Origin: Allopusillimonas soli
GTDB lineage: Bacteria > Pseudomonadota > Gammaproteobacteria > Burkholderiales > Burkholderiaceae_B
Direction of reading: 5' to 3'
DNA length: 64,000 nucleotides
NCBI RefSeq assembly: GCF_004153445.1
Contig: NZ_SDQC01000001.1
Span: forward strand, 930,001 to 994,000
The notes under the pieces were generated by a model. That model was not told the origin of the DNA, did no database searches, and saw only the letters and a list, made by a program, of their open reading frames with translations. Positions 1-11,564 of this stretch are shown here, in pieces (positions within the stretch are counted from its first letter, which is position 1; every line of letters begins with the position of its first letter). A program made the translations under genes and the position numbers.

Positions 1-1324
1 TGACGGGCGTATCCAACGCTGTAAGATACTGGCCGAGATGGTATTCAAGCCAGCCATAGGGAATCCAGATTGCGCCCGGGACCCTGGCCGTCTCATAGGA
101 CTTGCTGGTATCCACATGCACAATCAGGGGCTCGGGTTTCATGCTCTGCAACGCATCCGCACTCACATGTACCGAGTTCTCCCTGGCTTGACGCAGGCCG
201 AGAGGCGTCGACCGATCACGCCCCGACCCTATCGGATATCCGGCTTCCTTCCATACCTGCAGGCCGCCCCTCAAAACCCGAACATCCTGCCATCCCAGCT
301 TGCGAAACCAGAATGCTGTCAGAAATGCGCGCCCGGTATCATCGTCTACGAATATCAGGATTGCACGCCGTGCCGGCATATAGTCATCTATCCGCTGCAT
401 GGCCAGGCCTCCCGGAAGCACCTGCGCGCCGCGGATATGTGCAGTCTCGTACTGATCTACCTGTCGCACATCGTAGACATAGATGTTTCTGGCACGTGCA
501 TCTCGCTCCTTGATCAGCCCAGCGAGTTCATCCGGTTCGATTTCGGTAACGCCCGCCGACCGAGCCAAGGCCATGGCTGATTGCCTTCCAACCTGCACAC
601 TTTCGGGTGTAGGAGATAAAATTCCCTGCGGCGAGCCACGTTCTAGTCTGAATCCCGCCAGCTGCCAGCCCATCGTACCGTTTTCGAGTGCGTACACATT
701 GTCGAGGCCAAGCTCTCTTAGACCCTGACAAGCAATAATGCCCCGAGTTCGTCCGGCGCAATGCACCACAATGGGCAATCGAGCCTCCTTCAGATCATGA
801 GCCACCGACACCAGATCCACACCAAACGCGCCACGTGCATTAGGAATGCGCTTGTCCGCATACTCGACGGGCGTGCGTATATCACAGATTATGCAATCCC
901 TGCCTTCATCCAACCATGTTTTCAATGTCTCGGCAGATACTTGCGGCACACGCAGGGTCTCATGTACGTACTCTCCGAAAATCTTTCCAGCCACATTGGA
1001 TCCGGAGGTAACTTCCCTACCTTTGCTCAACCACGCAACAAGGCCACCTTCAAGAACATGGACGTTTTCATAGCCCACTCGATGCAATGCATCAGCTGCC
1101 AACTCCGCCCGCCTGCTGGTGCCATCGTCATAAAGAACGACAAAAGTTCGAGTATCAGGCACCAATTCTCCGATACGAAGTTCCAACATCCGTCGTGGAA
1201 GGAAACACGCGCCGAGAATATGTCCTGAGTTGGCTTCAGCCAGCTCACGCACATCGAACAAGGCCCACTCCGTATCACTCTCGCGCAGCCTGTCAAACGC
1301 TGGAAAGGAAATGATGCTCGTCAT
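1..1324 (-). CDS. Multi-domain rhodanese-like sulfurtransferase (3' end beyond window)
   Basis: The reverse strand is open from an ATG at 1324 to the left edge, giving 441 residues without a stop. Four rhodanese-like modules can be read at about residues 5-105, 128-230, 262-366 and 386 onward; the last is cut by the window. Only module 2 has a sulfur-accepting loop with cysteine (HCAGRTR, Cys189). At the same place modules 1 and 3 have YDDGTSR and VDDDTGR, so they look non-catalytic. No signal peptide is seen, so the protein is probably cytoplasmic. The start lies 2 bases after the stop of the acyl-CoA-dehydrogenase-like gene, so the two are surely co-transcribed. Rhodaneses move sulfane sulfur or act as sulfur carriers; the substrate here is unknown. 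Confidence 0.88.
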   Translation of the reverse strand, partial: MTSIISFPAFDRLRESDTEWALFDVRELAEANSGHILGACFLPRRMLELRIGELVPDTRTFVVLYDDGTSRRAELAADALHRVGYENVHVLEGGLVAWLSKGREVTSGSNVAGKIFGEYVHETLRVPQVSAETLKTWLDEGRDCIICDIRTPVEYADKRIPNARGAFGVDLVSVAHDLKEARLPIVVHCAGRTRGIIACQGLRELGLDNVYALENGTMGWQLAGFRLERGSPQGILSPTPESVQVGRQSAMALARSAGVTEIEPDELAGLIKERDARARNIYVYDVRQVDQYETAHIRGAQVLPGGLAMQRIDDYMPARRAILIFVDDDTGRAFLTAFWFRKLGWQDVRVLRGGLQVWKEAGYPIGSGRDRSTPLGLRQARENSVHVSADALQSMKPEPLIVHVDTSKSYETARVPGAIWIPYGWLEYHLGQYLTALDTPV

Positions 1325-1326
1325 GG

Positions 1327-2484
1327 CTATCCTTGCGCTCCACTAATACCCATGAACTCTTTACCTAGCAGTTCTCGAATGACCGTAATTTTCATCACGT
1401 TGATAGTTCCGCCCGTGAATGTAAGCGCGATCACATCGCGATAACGGCGTTCTATGTCAAGGTCCTTCAGGTATCCGGCGGCACCATGCATCTGCAGACA
1501 ATCGTAAACGGCCTGCACAGACGAGGTGATGCCGCTCCATTTGGCCATGCCTGCCTCACGTGCCGCATTCTCATTACGCGTGTTCATCCACAACCCCTTG
1601 TATGCCATCAAGCGGCAGCTTTCTATTCGGGTGTAATGCTCGATAAGCGGAAAGCTGATGGCCTGGAACAGGCCTATGGGCTGGCCATACACCTTTTTCT
1701 TCTTCACATAATCGATGGTGTCATCCAGAACCTGCTGCGCAGTCCCCAGTGCATTCAATGCACTTAGGCAACGGCTCACATTCCAGCGAGCATACAAGGT
1801 GGCCTTTCCCTCCCCTTTTCCGCCCAGCACATCTCCAATCGGAATACGCACGTTGTCAAAGTTCACAACACCAAGCTGGTGCGACCGTGTTCCCATCTCA
1901 GGCATTTCTTCCGATGATATGCCGGGCAGATCCGCCGGTACTCTCAGAAAGCTGATGCGCTCCTTACCGTCTTCTTGCCTGACCTTGGCAGTCACGCCCA
2001 TGAAAGTGGCGCCAGGCATCAAGCTAACGTGGATCTTGCGCCCGTTTATCACGAACTCGTTTCCGTCAACCTCAGCTCTTGTTTCCATGTTTGACACATC
2101 CGATCCCGCATCCGCTTCCGAGGTGGCGATGCTGACCAGCTGGTTTCCTTTGATGACCTCGCGCCGGATATCATCCCCCCAGCCGGGCACCAGATTGGGC
2201 AATGTATTCTGTATGGAGCAGATCATTGCGCAACTCGTGTCAACGCGTCCTATTTCCTCAATAGCGATACCCAGCTGAATATAATCAGCTTGGCTTCCAC
2301 CCAACTCCTTTGGAGCAATAATCCCGAGCAGCCCCGCTTCACCCATTTTTTTGATTGCATGCCTGGGCATGATTGCCTTCTCGTCCCATTCCCGGACATA
2401 GGGCTTTATCTCGCGTTGCGCGAAATCGGCAACGAACTTTCGAAACTCATCCTGCTGTGCCGAAAAACTGAAATCCAATGCCAT
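1327..2484 (-). CDS. Acyl-CoA dehydrogenase-fold flavoprotein lacking the catalytic glutamate
   Basis: 385 residues. The frame is open upstream to 2619, but the ATG at 2484 is preceded by GAGAGGAAAT and begins the usual family N-terminus (MALDFSFSAQQDEF). The ACAD hallmarks are present: a substrate/FAD region around TSEADAGSD (121-129) and the C-terminal helices with LQMHGAAGY and RRYRD. Aligned without gaps to the MCAD end, the catalytic Glu of the YEGT motif falls on Gly358 (FTGGT). At the alternative position used by isovaleryl-CoA dehydrogenase the residue is Ser237. Ordinary alpha,beta-dehydrogenation is therefore doubtful. It is first in an operon with the multi-rhodanese gene and diverges from a Bug-aconitase X operon. 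The fold is certain; the reaction is not known. Confidence 0.85.
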   Translation of the reverse strand: MALDFSFSAQQDEFRKFVADFAQREIKPYVREWDEKAIMPRHAIKKMGEAGLLGIIAPKELGGSQADYIQLGIAIEEIGRVDTSCAMICSIQNTLPNLVPGWGDDIRREVIKGNQLVSIATSEADAGSDVSNMETRAEVDGNEFVINGRKIHVSLMPGATFMGVTAKVRQEDGKERISFLRVPADLPGISSEEMPEMGTRSHQLGVVNFDNVRIPIGDVLGGKGEGKATLYARWNVSRCLSALNALGTAQQVLDDTIDYVKKKKVYGQPIGLFQAISFPLIEHYTRIESCRLMAYKGLWMNTRNENAAREAGMAKWSGITSSVQAVYDCLQMHGAAGYLKDLDIERRYRDVIALTFTGGTINVMKITVIRELLGKEFMGISGAQG

Positions 2485-2749
2485 GATATTTCCTCTCGCT
2501 GTGAATTCAGCGCCATATCTGGGCTGACATGCCCACCGCCTGTGCACGGAATGATCCATAACCCCTGATCGCAGCCGCACAATCTTTACTGGTGCGAATG
2601 CAGCATAATTCAGCCTCATAGGTGAATGCGTTTATTGTTTCGACATGCAAAACAAATTCGCACCGCATATCTCATCAAGCCCATACTTTCCGCAATGTTG
2701 TAAAGCCACTGAAAACAAACCTACATATCCGAAAGTGGAAGGAGGCAGC

Positions 2750-3760
2750 ATGCAATTACCCATCAGATTGTCGAGGGCCATTTTGGCTACCGTGGTCGGG
2801 CTGGCCAGCGCGCTGGTTTGCAGCACAGCGAGCGCAGCTTCCCCAATGGGCGGATCGGCCTATCCAACCAAGCCCGTCAAAATCGTCGTTCCCTTTCCCC
2901 CCGGTGGAACGAATGACATCGTGGGCAGGCTGGTTGCCAAGTACCTGGAAACGGAACTGGGCCAGCCTTTCGTTGTGGAGAACCTGGGTGGAGCGGGAGG
3001 TATTATCGGGACGGAATTCGTGGCCAGAGCTGCGCCAGACGGCTATACCCTGCTCGCTGTCTCATCGGGGCCGATGGCCACATCGCTATCCCTGTACAAG
3101 GACAGAATCAAGTATGACGTGAAGAAGGATTTCGTTCCGATCGCAACGCTTATTGATGTGACTGTGGTCGTGGCTGCGAGCCCCAAGTTTCCCGCCCACG
3201 ACATAGCTGGCTTGATTGAATACGCCAAGAAGAATCCTGGAGCGGTACGTGCGGGCCTTCCGGCCGTCGGCTCCATGCACCACCTGCTGACTGCCCAGTT
3301 CGAGATCGACGCTGGCGTCAACTTGAATCTCATTCCCTATAAAGGGAGTGGCCCCACTGTACTCGATTTAATGGGAAACCATATCGACATTGACTTTGAC
3401 AATATGCCCGCCGTCATTGAGCAGATCCGCGCACACAAGCTACAGGCGTTTGCTGTATCAACGCCGGAGCGCAACACAGCATTGCCGGATGTGCCCTCAT
3501 TCAAAGAACTTGGCATGAGCAATCTGTTGGCCGCCCCCTGGTTCGTGCTCGTTGCGCCGGAAGGAACACCGCAGGAAATCGTGACTGTTCTGAATAAGAA
3601 AATTCAGACGATGATGAGTGATCCCGAGACAAAGAAAAAGCTGGCCTCAATTGGCGCCAACCCAGCATGGCGCAGCCAAAAGGAAACCCAGGAATTTCTG
3701 GATACGGAAGTTTCCCGATGGGCGGCGACTGTTGAGAAGACGGGCCTGAAAATAGAATGA
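2750..3760 (+). CDS. Bug-family (tripartite tricarboxylate) periplasmic receptor
   Basis: 336 residues. The ATG at 2750 was chosen because GGAGG lies just upstream and a signal peptide follows at once, with likely cleavage after STASA near residue 29. Family marks are YPTKPVKIVVPFPPGGTND at the mature N-terminus, VVENLGGAGG, APDGYTLL and the closing LDTEVSRWAA segment. Such proteins bind small carboxylates in the periplasm and normally serve TctAB permeases, but no permease gene is nearby. Its stop overlaps the start of the aconitase X small subunit (ATGA), so the ligand is probably the substrate of that enzyme or a precursor. The 265-base gap to the divergent acyl-CoA-dehydrogenase-like gene presumably holds both promoters; no clear operator was seen. 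Confidence 0.92.
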   Translation: MQLPIRLSRAILATVVGLASALVCSTASAASPMGGSAYPTKPVKIVVPFPPGGTNDIVGRLVAKYLETELGQPFVVENLGGAGGIIGTEFVARAAPDGYTLLAVSSGPMATSLSLYKDRIKYDVKKDFVPIATLIDVTVVVAASPKFPAHDIAGLIEYAKKNPGAVRAGLPAVGSMHHLLTAQFEIDAGVNLNLIPYKGSGPTVLDLMGNHIDIDFDNMPAVIEQIRAHKLQAFAVSTPERNTALPDVPSFKELGMSNLLAAPWFVLVAPEGTPQEIVTVLNKKIQTMMSDPETKKKLASIGANPAWRSQKETQEFLDTEVSRWAATVEKTGLKIE

Positions 3761-4161
3761 GCCGCACTACTCTTCAGGGGGTCGGCTTGGCAGATGGGGT
3801 AGCTCAAGGCAAGGCGCTGATCTGTAATGAAGCTGTGAGCGTTGCTCGTATCGATGTCCTGACCGGTATCCTGCACGAGCCAGGCCATCCTCTGGATGGC
3901 GTGCCTGTAAAAGGAAAAGTGCTTGTATTTCCACAAGGTAAAGGCAGTAGTAGTGGATCATATATATTAATGAATCTCGCGGAGCAAGGTACGTCCCCAG
4001 AGGCGATTGTTATTGGCAAGCCGGACACAATACTGGTCGCCGGTGCCATCTTGGCAAAAATACCGCTAATAGGTGAAATCAGGCAGGAGGATATTCTTTC
4101 TATTCCTGACGGCAGCCTGCTGCACATTAACGGAGCAACAGGCGTCATTATGCGACTATGA
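3757..4161 (+). CDS. Aconitase X swivel-domain subunit (DUF126 family)
   Basis: 134 residues, the small beta/alpha swivel domain of aconitase X encoded as a separate chain. The conserved phosphate- or substrate-binding loop PQGKGSSSGSY is at residues 59-69. The ATG overlaps the receptor stop by four bases, and the TGA overlaps the start of the large subunit by four bases, which implies coupled translation and a 1:1 complex. Characterised bacterial two-chain AcnX enzymes dehydrate cis-3-hydroxy-L-proline, and archaeal ones dehydrate phosphomevalonate. The substrate here cannot be read from sequence. No hydroxyproline genes such as a pyrroline-2-carboxylate reductase lie in the window. Confidence 0.9.
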   Translation: MSRTTLQGVGLADGVAQGKALICNEAVSVARIDVLTGILHEPGHPLDGVPVKGKVLVFPQGKGSSSGSYILMNLAEQGTSPEAIVIGKPDTILVAGAILAKIPLIGEIRQEDILSIPDGSLLHINGATGVIMRL

Positions 4162-5381
4162 AACTGACTGCCGCACAACGGGCCATGCTGGAGGGAGGGG
4201 CCGGTCCGACTGCTCAGAGAATGATGCAGCTGCTCCATAGAGTGGGACAGGCAATGCATGCGCAGGACTTCATACCCATCCGCTCCGCACATGTCGGATT
4301 GTCGTACTCCTCTCTGGGGCCTGCTGGCGTGCACTGGTTGGAGCGCCTTGCTGCAAATGGCGCTCAGGTTTGCGTTCCGACAACAACCAACGTTCTGTCC
4401 GCCGAACGACGCCAGGACACCAATGTGGACAACCGGAACATCGAGATGCAGGAACGTGCGCTCAGTGCCTTGGTATGCATGGGTGCCGATGCCAACTGCT
4501 CCTGCAACCCATTCTCGCAAGGATATGTTCCTCGTTTTGGGGAGTCATTAGCATGGAGTGAGTCCGCCTGCGCCCCTTACGTAAATGGTGTACTCGGCGC
4601 CCGCACCAATAGAGAGGGCGTCACCGCATTGGCCTCAGCACTGACAGGCGTGACTCCCAACTATGGCATGCATCTCGTTTCAGAGCGAAGAGCGCGGCTG
4701 GTTGTGCGGGTTAAAGCAGAACTGGCCGACCTGCATCATTTTCATCTTCTAGGCGCCTGGGTGGCGCGCCAGTGCGCGGAAAATATACCCGCAATCGTGG
4801 GGTTACGACCAGAAACCGCATTCGAAAACCTGTATGGACTGTGTGCAGCGTTTTCAACCTATTCTCCCCTCGCCATTCTGCACATGGTGGGCATTTCCCC
4901 CGAAGCGCCCACAGTCGACGCCGCGCTCAATGTGGGCCGGCCCTATGCTCATGCTAAATCACCTCCAATCATTGATGTTACCGCCGCAGACCTGGAACAG
5001 CAGCGGCAGATCACCAATCAATGCAAAGAGGCGGCAACGGGCGATATCGTTATTATCGGCTGTCCTCATGCCACGTTGAATCAACTGCAAGAGATTTTCA
5101 CCTTGATGAAAGGAAAATCAATCTCCCCTAACAAGGCATTCTTTATTCACACCAATTCCCTCATACGAGCAGAAGCTAGCCGCATGGGCGTTTGGCATGG
5201 CTTAATAAAAGCCGGCATCACGGTAACCAGTGACACATGCATCTATGTCTCAATTTATCAGCACCCTCGCAGTGCTCGCGTGCTGACCAATTCAGCAAAA
5301 ATGGCGCACTTGATGTCCAGTCGAGGCTTCAGGGCTGCTCTGGCCAGCACGGCCGATTGCGTGCTCGCGGCTACTAAATAG
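4158..5381 (+). CDS. Aconitase X catalytic subunit (DUF521 family)
   Basis: 407 residues, the large Fe-S dehydratase chain. Landmarks are the early SAHVGLSYSSLGPAG segment, cysteines 114 and 116 in NCSCNPF, the strongly conserved YVNGVLGARTNREG block (141-154), and near the end SDTCIYVS followed by LTNSAKMAHL. These match the cluster-binding cysteines and active-site regions of aconitase X. The start overlaps the swivel subunit by four bases. Type and length fit the two-subunit bacterial form. The expected chemistry is removal of water from a hydroxylated acid or imino acid. No regulator sits directly beside the operon. The next gene is convergent and 77 bases away. Confidence 0.92.
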   Translation: MKLTAAQRAMLEGGAGPTAQRMMQLLHRVGQAMHAQDFIPIRSAHVGLSYSSLGPAGVHWLERLAANGAQVCVPTTTNVLSAERRQDTNVDNRNIEMQERALSALVCMGADANCSCNPFSQGYVPRFGESLAWSESACAPYVNGVLGARTNREGVTALASALTGVTPNYGMHLVSERRARLVVRVKAELADLHHFHLLGAWVARQCAENIPAIVGLRPETAFENLYGLCAAFSTYSPLAILHMVGISPEAPTVDAALNVGRPYAHAKSPPIIDVTAADLEQQRQITNQCKEAATGDIVIIGCPHATLNQLQEIFTLMKGKSISPNKAFFIHTNSLIRAEASRMGVWHGLIKAGITVTSDTCIYVSIYQHPRSARVLTNSAKMAHLMSSRGFRAALASTADCVLAATK

Positions 5382-5458: not shown

Positions 5459-6427
5459 TCACATTGTTATGTGCGCGTCATGAATAACTTTTTTCCATTT
5501 TTCGATTTCAGCCCGCAGAAATTCCTGCAATGCTTCCGGCGTACTTCCCACTCCATCTATCCCCATGCTCGCCAATTTCTTCGAAAAATCAGGCGAGTGA
5601 ACAATATCTGCAATCGTCTTGCTTAAAAGCGCCGCCCTATCTTGAGGAATGCCTCGCGGGCCAATGACAATGTGCCATGAACCTGCCACGTAGCCGGGGA
5701 CGGTTTCATCGATTGTCGGCAAGTCCGGCAGCAGTGGCGATCGTTTCGCACTAGTAATTCCCAATGCGTTCAGCTTGCCATCCTTGACCAGCGGCAGGGC
5801 TGCGGGAACATTCAGAAAAATGAAGGAGATATGATCTCCCAACAAGTCGGCAATACCCGGCGCATCGCCACGGTATGGAATATGATTCAGTGTCTTGATG
5901 CCCGTCATGGTTGCAAACAGTTCGGTAGCCAGCTCGTTGGAAGAACCGATTCCGCCCGATCCATAATCTATCTTCTCAGAAGAATGTTTGGCCTTCTCGA
6001 TCAGCTCCGCAATGTTCTTGGCACCCAGGTTCGGATTGGCCGTAACGACCATGGGAACGGTGCCTATCAAACTGATCATCGTGAAATCTTCGATCGGATC
6101 GTAATTTGCTGCAGGGTTAAGGGTACTGTTGATCGCGTGCCCTGACGGAACGAGGAGAATCGTATAACCGTCAGCCGGTGCAGCGCGTGCATCTTGCGTT
6201 CCTACAATACCATTGGCGCCCGTGTGATTCTCCACCACTACAGGTTGCCCTAGTTTCTTGGCCATGCGCTCTGCCAGCAAACGTGCAATAGTGTCGGAAG
6301 TGCCTCCCGGAGAAAATGCCACAATCAGTCTAATTGCCCTGTCGGGATAAATTTCCGAGTAAGCATTCGTGCAAAACAGAGCTATCGTAAAGCATAATAT
6401 GCCCTTCATAAGTGCTAGTGATTTCAT
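5459..6427 (-). CDS. Bug-family periplasmic receptor
   Basis: 322 residues. The frame is open to 6613, but the ATG at 6427 has GGAG eight bases upstream and begins a signal peptide (hydrophobic residues 6-20, cleavage after NAYS). The mature protein starts IYPDRAIRLIVAFSPGGTSD and has VVENHTGANG and APADGYTILL, as usual for the family. It converges on the aconitase X operon and diverges from cytosine deaminase 366 bases away. Its sequence is clearly different from the receptor at 2750, so it is not a recent duplicate. The ligand is unknown and no membrane partner genes are near. Confidence 0.92.
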   Translation of the reverse strand: MKSLALMKGILCFTIALFCTNAYSEIYPDRAIRLIVAFSPGGTSDTIARLLAERMAKKLGQPVVVENHTGANGIVGTQDARAAPADGYTILLVPSGHAINSTLNPAANYDPIEDFTMISLIGTVPMVVTANPNLGAKNIAELIEKAKHSSEKIDYGSGGIGSSNELATELFATMTGIKTLNHIPYRGDAPGIADLLGDHISFIFLNVPAALPLVKDGKLNALGITSAKRSPLLPDLPTIDETVPGYVAGSWHIVIGPRGIPQDRAALLSKTIADIVHSPDFSKKLASMGIDGVGSTPEALQEFLRAEIEKWKKVIHDAHITM

Positions 6428-6793
6428 ATGTGTCTCCGTCCCCATATAGTTGATCGAATCAACGTCCACCTGTATGGCATATTGAGCATTTGCCACCATG
6501 CCAAGCTGAAATCCTAAGGCCGTTGCAGGGCGAGCCCGAGCATATGAATCGCTATGCGAAACCTTTTGATAATCAGGAGATCTGGAGATAAGGAGGTTAG
6601 GAACAGATGTCAAGTATGAGGAACAAGGAGGTACGACGGAGCTATAACCGTATTCCCATGCGGCATGCTACTGGCGCTTTGGGCCCGAACGTTTTTACCG
6701 CACGGCAGAGAAAGTCGTGTAGCTATCCAACCATCTTGATACGCGATACAGCCACACGAAAATCACAGAAACAATCCACGACCAGAGGCGACT

Positions 6794-9677: not shown

Positions 9678-10568
9678 TTACTTCACGGCCTCGCCTTTGA
9701 TCTGAGTCCGATACATCAAGCGCCTGCTGGCCGGATCGAAAGAATCGCGTTTATGCATCGTGCAGCGATTATCCCAAAGTACCAAGTCACCAAGTTGCCA
9801 TGATTGCGTCCAGCATAAGTGTGATTGCGTGCAGTGCGCCCATAGCTCATCGAGTAGCGCCTCGCTTTCTTCCAGTTCAAAACCAATGATGTAGGCATTG
9901 CGCCGGCGCCCCAAGAACAGACATTTTCGACCCGTGACGGGATGCGTTCGAACAACGGGGTGAATTGCCCCAACCGTCTTTCGTGGGTCATCTACCTCGG
10001 TAAAGCCGTCTCGAAGCTGGCCTGCACTATTGCGACTTGCATCGTGGACACACCGTAGCGGCTCCAGGCGTCGTTTGAGATCACTGTTTAGCTCATCATA
10101 GGCTTGGTACATATTGACGAACGACGTGTCACCTCCTGATTGAGGCACCTCTACTGAGTACAAGCAACTCCCCTTGGGTGGAGTATCTTTGTATGTCATG
10201 TCAGAGTGCCACACTGCCTCATACGAACCCAAGGCGCCAATCGATTTACCCGCTACCGTTATGTTGGAGATTACGGTAACCTCAGGCGGCAAATGATCAA
10301 GCGAGCTTCTGCTGTGGCCGGCGGCTGATATGGGTCGCTTGTCTAGCTCGCCGAAAAATTTCGAAAACCTGATCAAGTCGTTTAAGTCGAGGCCTTGCTG
10401 ATTGCGGATACGCAATACCAAGTGTGCAGCCCACGCTTCGGTGAGAAAGGTAAGTTCATCCTGAGTGGGGCGATGCCTCAGGTCGAAACCAAGCACGTCT
10501 GCTCCCAAGGCTTGGCCGGAAGGGACGATTGAAATGGAGAGATTATTCTGATTTGGGTAAGCGCTCAT
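9678..10568 (-). CDS. TauD/TfdA-family Fe(II)/2-oxoglutarate dioxygenase
   Basis: 296 residues. The facial-triad residues are His121 and Asp123 (AVWHSDMTY) and His272 (DNRCTMHKRD). The 2-oxoglutarate-binding arginine is expected in SRRLMYRT near the end. FFGELDKRPI near residue 75 is also typical. Family members hydroxylate taurine, alkylsulfonates, aryloxyacetates and similar small acids in the cytoplasm, often releasing sulfite or an aldehyde. The gene diverges from a LysR regulator and shares with it a 93-base AT-rich control region. A Bug receptor gene follows the regulator, which suggests uptake and cleavage of an imported acid. The exact substrate cannot be told; TfdA-like is as likely as TauD-like. 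Confidence 0.88.
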   Translation of the reverse strand: MSAYPNQNNLSISIVPSGQALGADVLGFDLRHRPTQDELTFLTEAWAAHLVLRIRNQQGLDLNDLIRFSKFFGELDKRPISAAGHSRSSLDHLPPEVTVISNITVAGKSIGALGSYEAVWHSDMTYKDTPPKGSCLYSVEVPQSGGDTSFVNMYQAYDELNSDLKRRLEPLRCVHDASRNSAGQLRDGFTEVDDPRKTVGAIHPVVRTHPVTGRKCLFLGRRRNAYIIGFELEESEALLDELWAHCTQSHLCWTQSWQLGDLVLWDNRCTMHKRDSFDPASRRLMYRTQIKGEAVK

Positions 10569-10661: not shown

Positions 10662-11564
10662 ATGAATATTACCTTCAAGCAGGTCGAGGCGTTTCTTGCA
10701 GTCGCTCGAACTTTGAACTTCAGTCGTGCGGCTGGACTCGTGCACTTATCTCAACCTGCTCTAAGCGCAAATATCCGCCGTTTAGAGGAAGTGATAGGTG
10801 CGCGACTGTTTGACCGAGACACGCGTACCGTTGCGTTATCAGCAGCTGGGGTCGAATTTTTTAACATCGCAACAGAGCTAATAGAGAACGCTGAAAACGG
10901 CCTGGCGCGAATTAGAGATTTCGCATCAGGCAAACATAGAATTTTGAATTTGGCCGTAGCACCATCATTTGCGGCAAGCTTTCTGCCCGATGTGATCGTG
11001 CGGTTTTCTATCCAGTATCCGGGCGTCAGATTGCACATTCACGATGTACTCGCCGAAACCTGTATCGAGCTCGTGCGTTCGGGAGCGGTCGACCTCGCGC
11101 TGACAGCGAAGGCCGACGAGATGGATGATCTGGTTCAACAAGACGTGCTTCGCGATCCGCTAGTTGTCCTTTGTACCAACGCTCATCCGATTGCTCGACA
11201 AAAAACCGTTTCCTGGAACGACGTCTACACATGTGACCACATATCCCGAAAAGGGGCGAGTAATGTGCGTCAGCTTATTGATCAAGAGTATCGCCGTCAG
11301 GGGCTGGTGTTCCGGCCAGCCTTTGAGGTGGAAAACGTAGGAACGATGATGGGGTTAGTCCGGGCTGGGCTCGGTATAGGCATCTTTGCAGAGTCAACGG
11401 TTAGATCATTCAATATGGCCGGCCTGATATGCCGACCATTCCGATTTTCGTCAAGGCCGTATCGAATTATTTGTGCAACGACACAGCGCAGCCGGTCCGA
11501 TGATCACATTGCAGATGCGTTTGTTGACATGTGTCGCGCGAAAGCAAAGGCAATGCGTCGATAA
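10662..11564 (+). CDS. LysR-family transcriptional regulator
   Basis: 300 residues. The N-terminal winged helix-turn-helix (residues 1-60) contains FLAVARTLNFSRAAGLVHLSQ and PALSANIRRLEEVIGARLF, a standard LysR pattern. The rest is the two-lobed effector domain, with ILNLAVAPSFAASFLPDVI at the start of lobe one. The gene diverges from the dioxygenase gene and probably controls it and itself. The downstream Bug receptor gene begins 182 bases after its stop and may be a further target. The effector is unknown, probably the dioxygenase substrate or product. Confidence 0.93.
   Translation: MNITFKQVEAFLAVARTLNFSRAAGLVHLSQPALSANIRRLEEVIGARLFDRDTRTVALSAAGVEFFNIATELIENAENGLARIRDFASGKHRILNLAVAPSFAASFLPDVIVRFSIQYPGVRLHIHDVLAETCIELVRSGAVDLALTAKADEMDDLVQQDVLRDPLVVLCTNAHPIARQKTVSWNDVYTCDHISRKGASNVRQLIDQEYRRQGLVFRPAFEVENVGTMMGLVRAGLGIGIFAESTVRSFNMAGLICRPFRFSSRPYRIICATTQRSRSDDHIADAFVDMCRAKAKAMRR

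Follow-up and report, generated by a model that had tools for sequence, protein, structure and literature searches.

The 64,000-nucleotide stretch of the Allopusillimonas soli genome analyzed here (the window; contig NZ_SDQC01000001.1, positions 930,001 to 994,000) encodes ACAD1, a protein with a predicted acyl-CoA dehydrogenase (ACAD) fold that has lost the catalytic glutamate from both of its known positions. This loss is conserved in a separate clade of proteins, whose genes are accompanied by a conserved cluster. Few flavoenzymes are understood as well as the ACADs, whose textbook base is this glutamate. Judged from these residues, ACAD1 probably performs a reaction other than the usual ACAD chemistry. 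We tentatively favor, well short of even confidence, an FAD enzyme that cleaves a carbon-sulfur bond of a CoA thioester during breakdown of a substituted carboxylic acid containing sulfur.

Fold and active site of ACAD1

The sequence-only reading had placed the gene at positions 1327 to 2484, and the 385-residue frame at these coordinates was retained. The strand has to be given as minus, running from 2484 to 1327, since stops interrupt the plus-strand frame on translation. The ribosome-binding-like sequence GAGAGGAAATATC precedes the ATG. The N-terminal (PF02771), middle (PF02770) and C-terminal (PF00441) ACAD domains all score above cut-off in Pfam. The AlphaFold2 model (mean pLDDT 87.7) shows helix G and the JK loop as expected, with VIA-align Z scores of 47-50 overall, about 50 to SCAD and ACADSB and about 47 to MCAD, IVD and the desulfinase; entries missing from the Foldseek and VIA lists were given no weight as evidence. 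The three domains and a predicted-fold match with Z up to 50.3 place ACAD1 in the acyl-CoA dehydrogenase superfamily.

In a 66-row MAFFT alignment FTGGT replaces the YEGT motif, so that Gly358 occupies the position of the MCAD glutamate, and Ser237 occupies that of the IVD and LCAD glutamate. The loci L025-L027 and L068 lie outside these 66 rows, probably since the ORFs called for them had 300 aa or less; EGT is visible in L025-L027. The GGT of ACAD1 also falls under EGT in three printed alignments to PDB ACADs. In the model helix 226-262 carries Ser237, and the loop joining helices 344-353 and 361-373 carries Gly358. The earlier claim that both known base positions lack a glutamate is thus borne out, with the same residue numbers. 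Neither ACAD1 nor any of its six orthologs nor a related paralog carries the glutamate at the JK-loop or helix-G position that marks catalytic ACADs of the MCAD or IVD type. With no base left at either known position, ACAD1 would not start with removal of the alpha-proton.

A glutamate brought to the base position by another helix had been named as one finding that would overturn this view. Clade-enriched acids (Asp or Glu in at least six of seven clade rows) occur at positions 82, 104, 125, 192, 196 and 371, and none of these coincides with a known base position. Under a stricter filter only D82, E196 and E371 are identical in all seven rows. The claim stands for the known positions, but Asp/Glu125 offers a possible substitute: it lies inside the TEPxAGSD flavin loop and is acidic in 7/7 clade rows compared with 4/38 relatives (position 104, 1/38; position 82, 4/38). 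By its conservation it is a candidate unorthodox base. The clade further differs from its relatives in His152, where all 38 compared relatives harbor Phe, Trp or Tyr, and in Arg233, Trp234 and Phe356. We take position 152 to be that of MCAD Trp166 on the ETF-facing side of FAD. For these residue and acid comparisons 21 of the 66 rows were removed (ACAD2, duplicates, almost identical mycobacterial copies, and rows that were distant or partial).

Ser154, Gln274, Gln331 and Thr360, which presumably correspond to FAD contacts by MCAD numbering, are kept or conservatively changed relative to the MCAD positions. Where ERxxFG has Arg, ACAD1 and the displayed orthologs have Lys. We infer from the sequence that ACAD1 uses FAD and a CoA thioester. 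Thr357 stands where Tyr is usual; smaller residues at this site are associated with alpha-substituted substrates in the available text of PMC11659651.

Conservation, distribution and phylogenetic placement

A GTDB contig scan yielded 35 relatives, four of them orthologs with more than 60% identity and the remaining 31 with at most 35%. The orthologs stem from Candidimonas nitroreducens (81%), a Burkholderiales MAG (76%), Rhizobiales 64-17 (66%) and Pseudolabrys (66%), and two Variovorax plasmids from PLSDB add orthologs at about 70% (range 66-81%, n=6). The two plasmids are near-duplicates, as are Rhizobiales 64-17 and Pseudolabrys, leaving five lineages including that of the window. FTGGTIN, together with Ser or Thr ahead of Arg-Cys, is kept in all six orthologs. 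Plasmid 4 of Variovorax SRS16 also harbors a 46% paralog (L058:6902-8074) with FSGGTP and Ser-Arg and without either glutamate, which shares the cluster of the ortholog. Among orthologs dN/dS is 0.04-0.32 (9/10 pairs computable), a rough value as dS approaches saturation in several pairs and is infinite in one of the ten. These ratios indicate that ACAD1 is under purifying selection. Because GGT and the Ser or Thr are retained in six orthologs and the paralog, the base loss reflects neither error nor decay; a pseudogene or sequencing error was rejected, given the agreeing orthologs and low dN/dS.

At the strict limit, matches were found in 2/151 genomes of the family, 2/399 of the order, 1/369 of the class and 1/398 of the phylum, where every count takes in the genome of the window and the class scan used the Variovorax paralog as query. 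Four other genomes of the source genus gave no ACAD1 match at this limit. The ACAD1 clade is rare, and its cluster occurs patchily in both Alpha- and Betaproteobacteria.

The absence of both acids is not unique to ACAD1, and by sequence base-less ACADs as such are not rare. The source genome contains 23 ACAD-like matches, 20 of which were fetched. Glu or Asp occupies the loop position in 11, Glu sits on the helix in six, and three lack both, namely ACAD1 and the distant L011 and L017, whose alignment is unsure. L011 (G000:C10:98306-99139) shows IVTGTS and Asn-Arg at the two sites, and one TAA lies within the matched frame.

The sequence-only reading had cited the 3-sulfinopropionyl-CoA desulfinase as an example and proposed placing ACAD1 in a family tree with it. 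In a maximum-likelihood tree of 46 rows (20 of the 66 alignment rows were dropped, and the tree does not include the Variovorax E5 ortholog) ACAD1, the other five orthologs and the paralog form one group with 100/100 support, and the desulfinases form a separate group, also with 100/100. With the desulfinase profile NF042439, ACAD1 scores 168.5 bits against a cut-off of 600, and five other clade members score 162.1-192.5 bits. All six proteins above this cut-off harbor Gln at the place of Ser237 and Arg at the place of Met87; we take both to be active-site residues. One of them, the Alcaligenaceae protein L062, shares 26% identity with ACAD1. Profile score, tree and key residues rule out desulfinase membership, and the supposed kinship was abandoned. 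ACAD1 is below cut-off for all 22 NCBIfam models listed. A protein from another genome of the same family (L070, G127), which shows ITGGTT and carries Thr in place of the helix-G glutamate, groups near the desulfinases and reaches 338.9 bits, also under 600; by its sequence it is possibly a further base-less subfamily.

The conserved gene cluster

Past the rhodanese the operon extends beyond the left end of the window. Its further genes, all on the strand of ACAD1, encode ACAD2, then a first and, after a PaaK-like CoA ligase, a second flavin reductase. Genes for TctC, MmgE/PrpD and SDR proteins lie beside it on the opposite strand (Table 1). ACAD1, rhodanese, ACAD2, PaaK, MmgE/PrpD, SDR and TctC were found in all seven regions compared, the TctC gene at 2645..3760 having homologs in each. 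The first flavin reductase occurs in 6/7 regions and was not found in the Burkholderiales region, of which 20 kb were covered. IclR is present in 5/7 regions, as is aconitase X, which was not found in the 33-kb Variovorax stretches.

Table 1. Positions of ACAD1 and associated features in and beside the window.
Feature	Position	Strand	Characteristics
ACAD2, very divergent ACAD-fold protein	L056:16446-17612, left of window	operon strand	HIHCHG(A/S)H, LHENLD
Four-domain rhodanese, 532 aa in full	1..1324 in window; last 275 bases at L056:17726-18000	(-)	four PF00581 stretches
ACAD1, ACAD-fold protein without catalytic Glu	1327..2484	(-)	385 aa; Gly358, Ser237
TctC-type solute-binding protein, divergent	2645..3760	(+)	PF03401 213.9 bits; start possibly further downstream
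Aconitase X small (swivel) subunit	3757..4161	(+)	PF01989 91.8 bits; 40-53% identity to cluster homologs
Aconitase X large subunit	4158..5381	(+)	PF04412 369.7 bits; PDB 7cnr E 1.9e-50
Second TctC-type binding protein	5459..6613	(-)	PF03401 213 bits
TauD/TfdA-family dioxygenase	9678-10568	(-)	adjoins further TctC genes
Divergent LysR regulator	10662-11564	(+)	likewise adjoins further TctC genes

The link to the rhodanese, proposed earlier from co-transcription, is real and conserved. Its ATG lies 2 bases past the ACAD1 stop, and in the seven regions the CAGRTR loop of domain 2 is invariant. The domain-4 cysteine is lost in Variovorax. The Rhizobiales, Pseudolabrys and Variovorax regions lack the direct adjacency; the ACAD1 and rhodanese genes of Rhizobiales 64-17 and Pseudolabrys share a strand but are about 10 kb apart. 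Rhodaneses have many roles besides sulfur catabolism; by analogy, a sulfur role for this one is plausible. A paralogous four-domain rhodanese is encoded elsewhere in the genome (L089, G000:C12:300001-316000); its neighbors are an ABC importer, a cupin-fold pirin, a LysR regulator and a PLP enzyme of Cys/Met metabolism. The available text of PMC5373536 describes an Advenella mercaptosuccinate locus with a cystathionine beta-lyase, a rhodanese-related sulfurtransferase, a PAAT transporter, a LysR regulator and a dioxygenase; the two loci are alike in PLP enzyme, importer, LysR and rhodanese. No dioxygenase of the mercaptosuccinate-locus kind was recognized among the nine ORFs scanned at the paralogous locus, two of which have no Pfam match.

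ACAD2 shows an invariant HIHCHG(A/S)H and an LHENLD at the base loop in all seven clusters and keeps a glutamate at the loop position. It is very distant (23-24% identity, stem branch 2.53). Its best NCBIfam profile is acryloyl-CoA reductase (139.8 bits), and it weakly matches SfnB (83.3 bits), DszC (66 bits) and methanesulfinate monooxygenase. ACAD2 is a candidate two-component flavin monooxygenase. The rhodanese separates ACAD1 and ACAD2 in the source genome; the spacing is about 7 kb in Rhizobiales and Pseudolabrys and about 4 kb in Variovorax.

The best solved relatives of the PaaK-like ligase are phenylacetate-CoA ligase and 2-hydroxyisobutyryl-CoA synthetase. The aconitase X large subunit also matches 7d2r, a cis-3-hydroxy-L-proline dehydratase. 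The second TctC-type protein shares 72% and 56% identity with ORFs of the Candidimonas and Burkholderiales clusters, respectively. Among the compared clusters the TauD-family dioxygenase was matched only in the Variovorax E5 region (29%); it may be linked to sulfonates, although the family is broad. No thiol dioxygenase, sulfite oxidase or carboxylase was recognized among the annotated cluster genes. The Rhizobiales cluster also harbors, on the opposite strand, an ORF of 287 aa (L023:9394-10257; the same ORF in L024) with only the C-terminal citrate synthase domain PF00285, as well as a family III CoA-transferase. The cluster is not named in the titles and abstract openings listed by searches of open-licence literature, where absence is weak evidence, and nothing was found there on thiophene-carboxylate as a substrate.

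Candidate reactions and known base-less systems

In the tentatively favored carbon-sulfur reading, a substituted carboxylic acid would be imported through TctC and converted by the PaaK-like ligase to the CoA thioester on which ACAD1 acts. ACAD2 with a flavin reductase would oxidize sulfur or carbon before this step. ACAD1 would skip alpha-proton removal and instead expel the substituent, preferably a sulfur oxyanion such as sulfite, or CO2, leaving a carbanion or enolate state, with the sulfur thus set free passing to the four-domain rhodanese. The order of steps, the leaving group and the substrate are our suggestions. This reading appears to be favored by the base absence kept under purifying selection, by the retention of the presumed FAD contacts, by Thr357, by rhodanese and PaaK in 7/7 regions and by the invariant CAGRTR loop, and by analogy also by the Advenella-like locus of the paralogous rhodanese and the weak sulfur-monooxygenase matches of ACAD2. 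Against it stand the position outside the desulfinase clade without the Gln and Arg, the missing thiol dioxygenase and sulfite oxidase among the recognized genes, the restriction of the TauD match to Variovorax E5, the incompletely kept rhodanese adjacency and the Variovorax cysteine loss. The best profile of ACAD2 is a reductase and not a sulfur monooxygenase, and MmgE/PrpD, SDR and aconitase X indicate plain carboxylic-acid chemistry as much as sulfur. Thus the earlier suggestion of a carbon-sulfur reaction gains from the conserved rhodanese link and loses its desulfinase kinship, and the C-S step itself stays an inference.

A serious though unlikely alternative is oxidative decarboxylation of the IaaF kind, in which CO2, and not the C2 proton, leaves a 2-carboxyacyl-CoA of the malonyl-CoA type as the C3 hydride passes to FAD; O2 instead of ETF may then accept the electrons. 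His152, in place of an aromatic residue in 38/38 relatives, would fit a loss of ETF coupling if the presumed match to MCAD Trp166 holds. IaaF is itself a published ACAD without the base and with small motif residues (PMC8360864), and MmgE/PrpD enzymes, one adjoining an ACAD, use succinate-like acids in the available account of PMC12290011. Any kinship with IaaF is putative, however, no carboxylase was recognized in the annotated cluster, and the rhodanese is left unexplained. Less probable, and in our view rather unlikely, is a dehydrogenase or enoyl-CoA reductase with an unrecognized base or acid, be it Asp/Glu125, His152, Ser237 acting through water, or a residue of a neighboring subunit. 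The fully ACAD-like predicted fold, the reductase and dehydrogenase that give the best NCBIfam matches (AcrC, 226 bits; cyclohexanecarboxyl-CoA dehydrogenase, 224.3 bits) and the enrichment of acids at 125, 104 and 82 would agree with it, but all enriched acids lie away from the known base positions. Furthermore, the Foldseek list includes 1egd, human MCAD T255E/E376G, and ACAD1 matches this mutant minus the T255E change; MCAD with E376G by itself is inactive.

Certain mycobacterial ACADs form heterotetramers containing a subunit without the base. It is improbable that ACAD1 is likewise a non-catalytic or regulatory subunit of a mixed complex, with ACAD2 as partner. The two co-occur in 7/7 regions and ACAD2 has the loop glutamate (LHEN), yet ACAD1 keeps the positions presumed to contact FAD, ACAD2 is very distant, and their genes are split by the rhodanese or by several kilobases. 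ACAD-fold monooxygenases such as DszC also lack the base, and the cluster encodes flavin reductases with which ACAD1 could pair as a reduced-flavin monooxygenase. This is the least probable of the readings weighed here. In Pfam PF00441 (107.1 bits) is far above PF08028 (40.1 bits), and ACAD1 does not have the PF08028-type C-terminal domain that we take to define the DszC/HsaA type. Profile matches to DszC (39.2 bits) and HsaA (29.1 bits) are weak, the first flavin reductase is missing from the 20 kb of the Burkholderiales region, and ACAD2 suits the role better.

Conserved natural lineages without the glutamate reveal how the ACAD fold is redirected to other chemistry. The ACAD1 clade travels with a ligase, two ACAD-fold proteins, a rhodanese, MmgE/PrpD and SDR, and mostly with flavin reductase and aconitase X, and this conserved cluster could lead to substrate and new reaction together. 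It is conceivable, if doubtful, that ACAD1 founds a new base-less subfamily that cleaves a C-S (or C-C) bond in an undescribed pathway for sulfur-bearing acids encoded by a rare cluster.

Several known systems share parts of this picture. Isovaleryl- and long-chain acyl-CoA dehydrogenases have Gly or Ala in the JK loop as ACAD1 does, but carry Glu on helix G where the clade has Ser or Thr. AcrC and cyclohexanecarboxyl-CoA dehydrogenase match ACAD1 over nearly its full length, with scores far below their cut-offs of 640 and 575.35 bits. The itaconate/methylsuccinate cluster of PMC12290011 resembles that of ACAD1 in MmgE/PrpD, an ACAD and CoA activation of dicarboxylates; the available account includes no rhodanese, and its ACAD performs ordinary dehydrogenation. 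ACADs without the catalytic glutamate are already published in IaaF and the desulfinase, and by analogy ACAD1 fits this base-free class. The 3-sulfinopropionyl-CoA desulfinase (PDB 5af7, 5ahs) shares with ACAD1 the fold (VIA Z 47.4, 22% identity), GGT in the loop and the absence of Glu at either position, and differs in Gln and Arg in place of Ser237 and Met87. IaaF, a decarboxylating benzylmalonyl-CoA dehydrogenase, likewise belongs to the ACAD family and to a CoA-thioester catabolic cluster and has small residues for YEG (GGG, compared with TGG in ACAD1); rhodanese, aconitase X, MmgE/PrpD and SDR are unmentioned for iaa in the available text of PMC8360864. By this analogy IaaF is as good a precedent for ACAD1 as desulfination.
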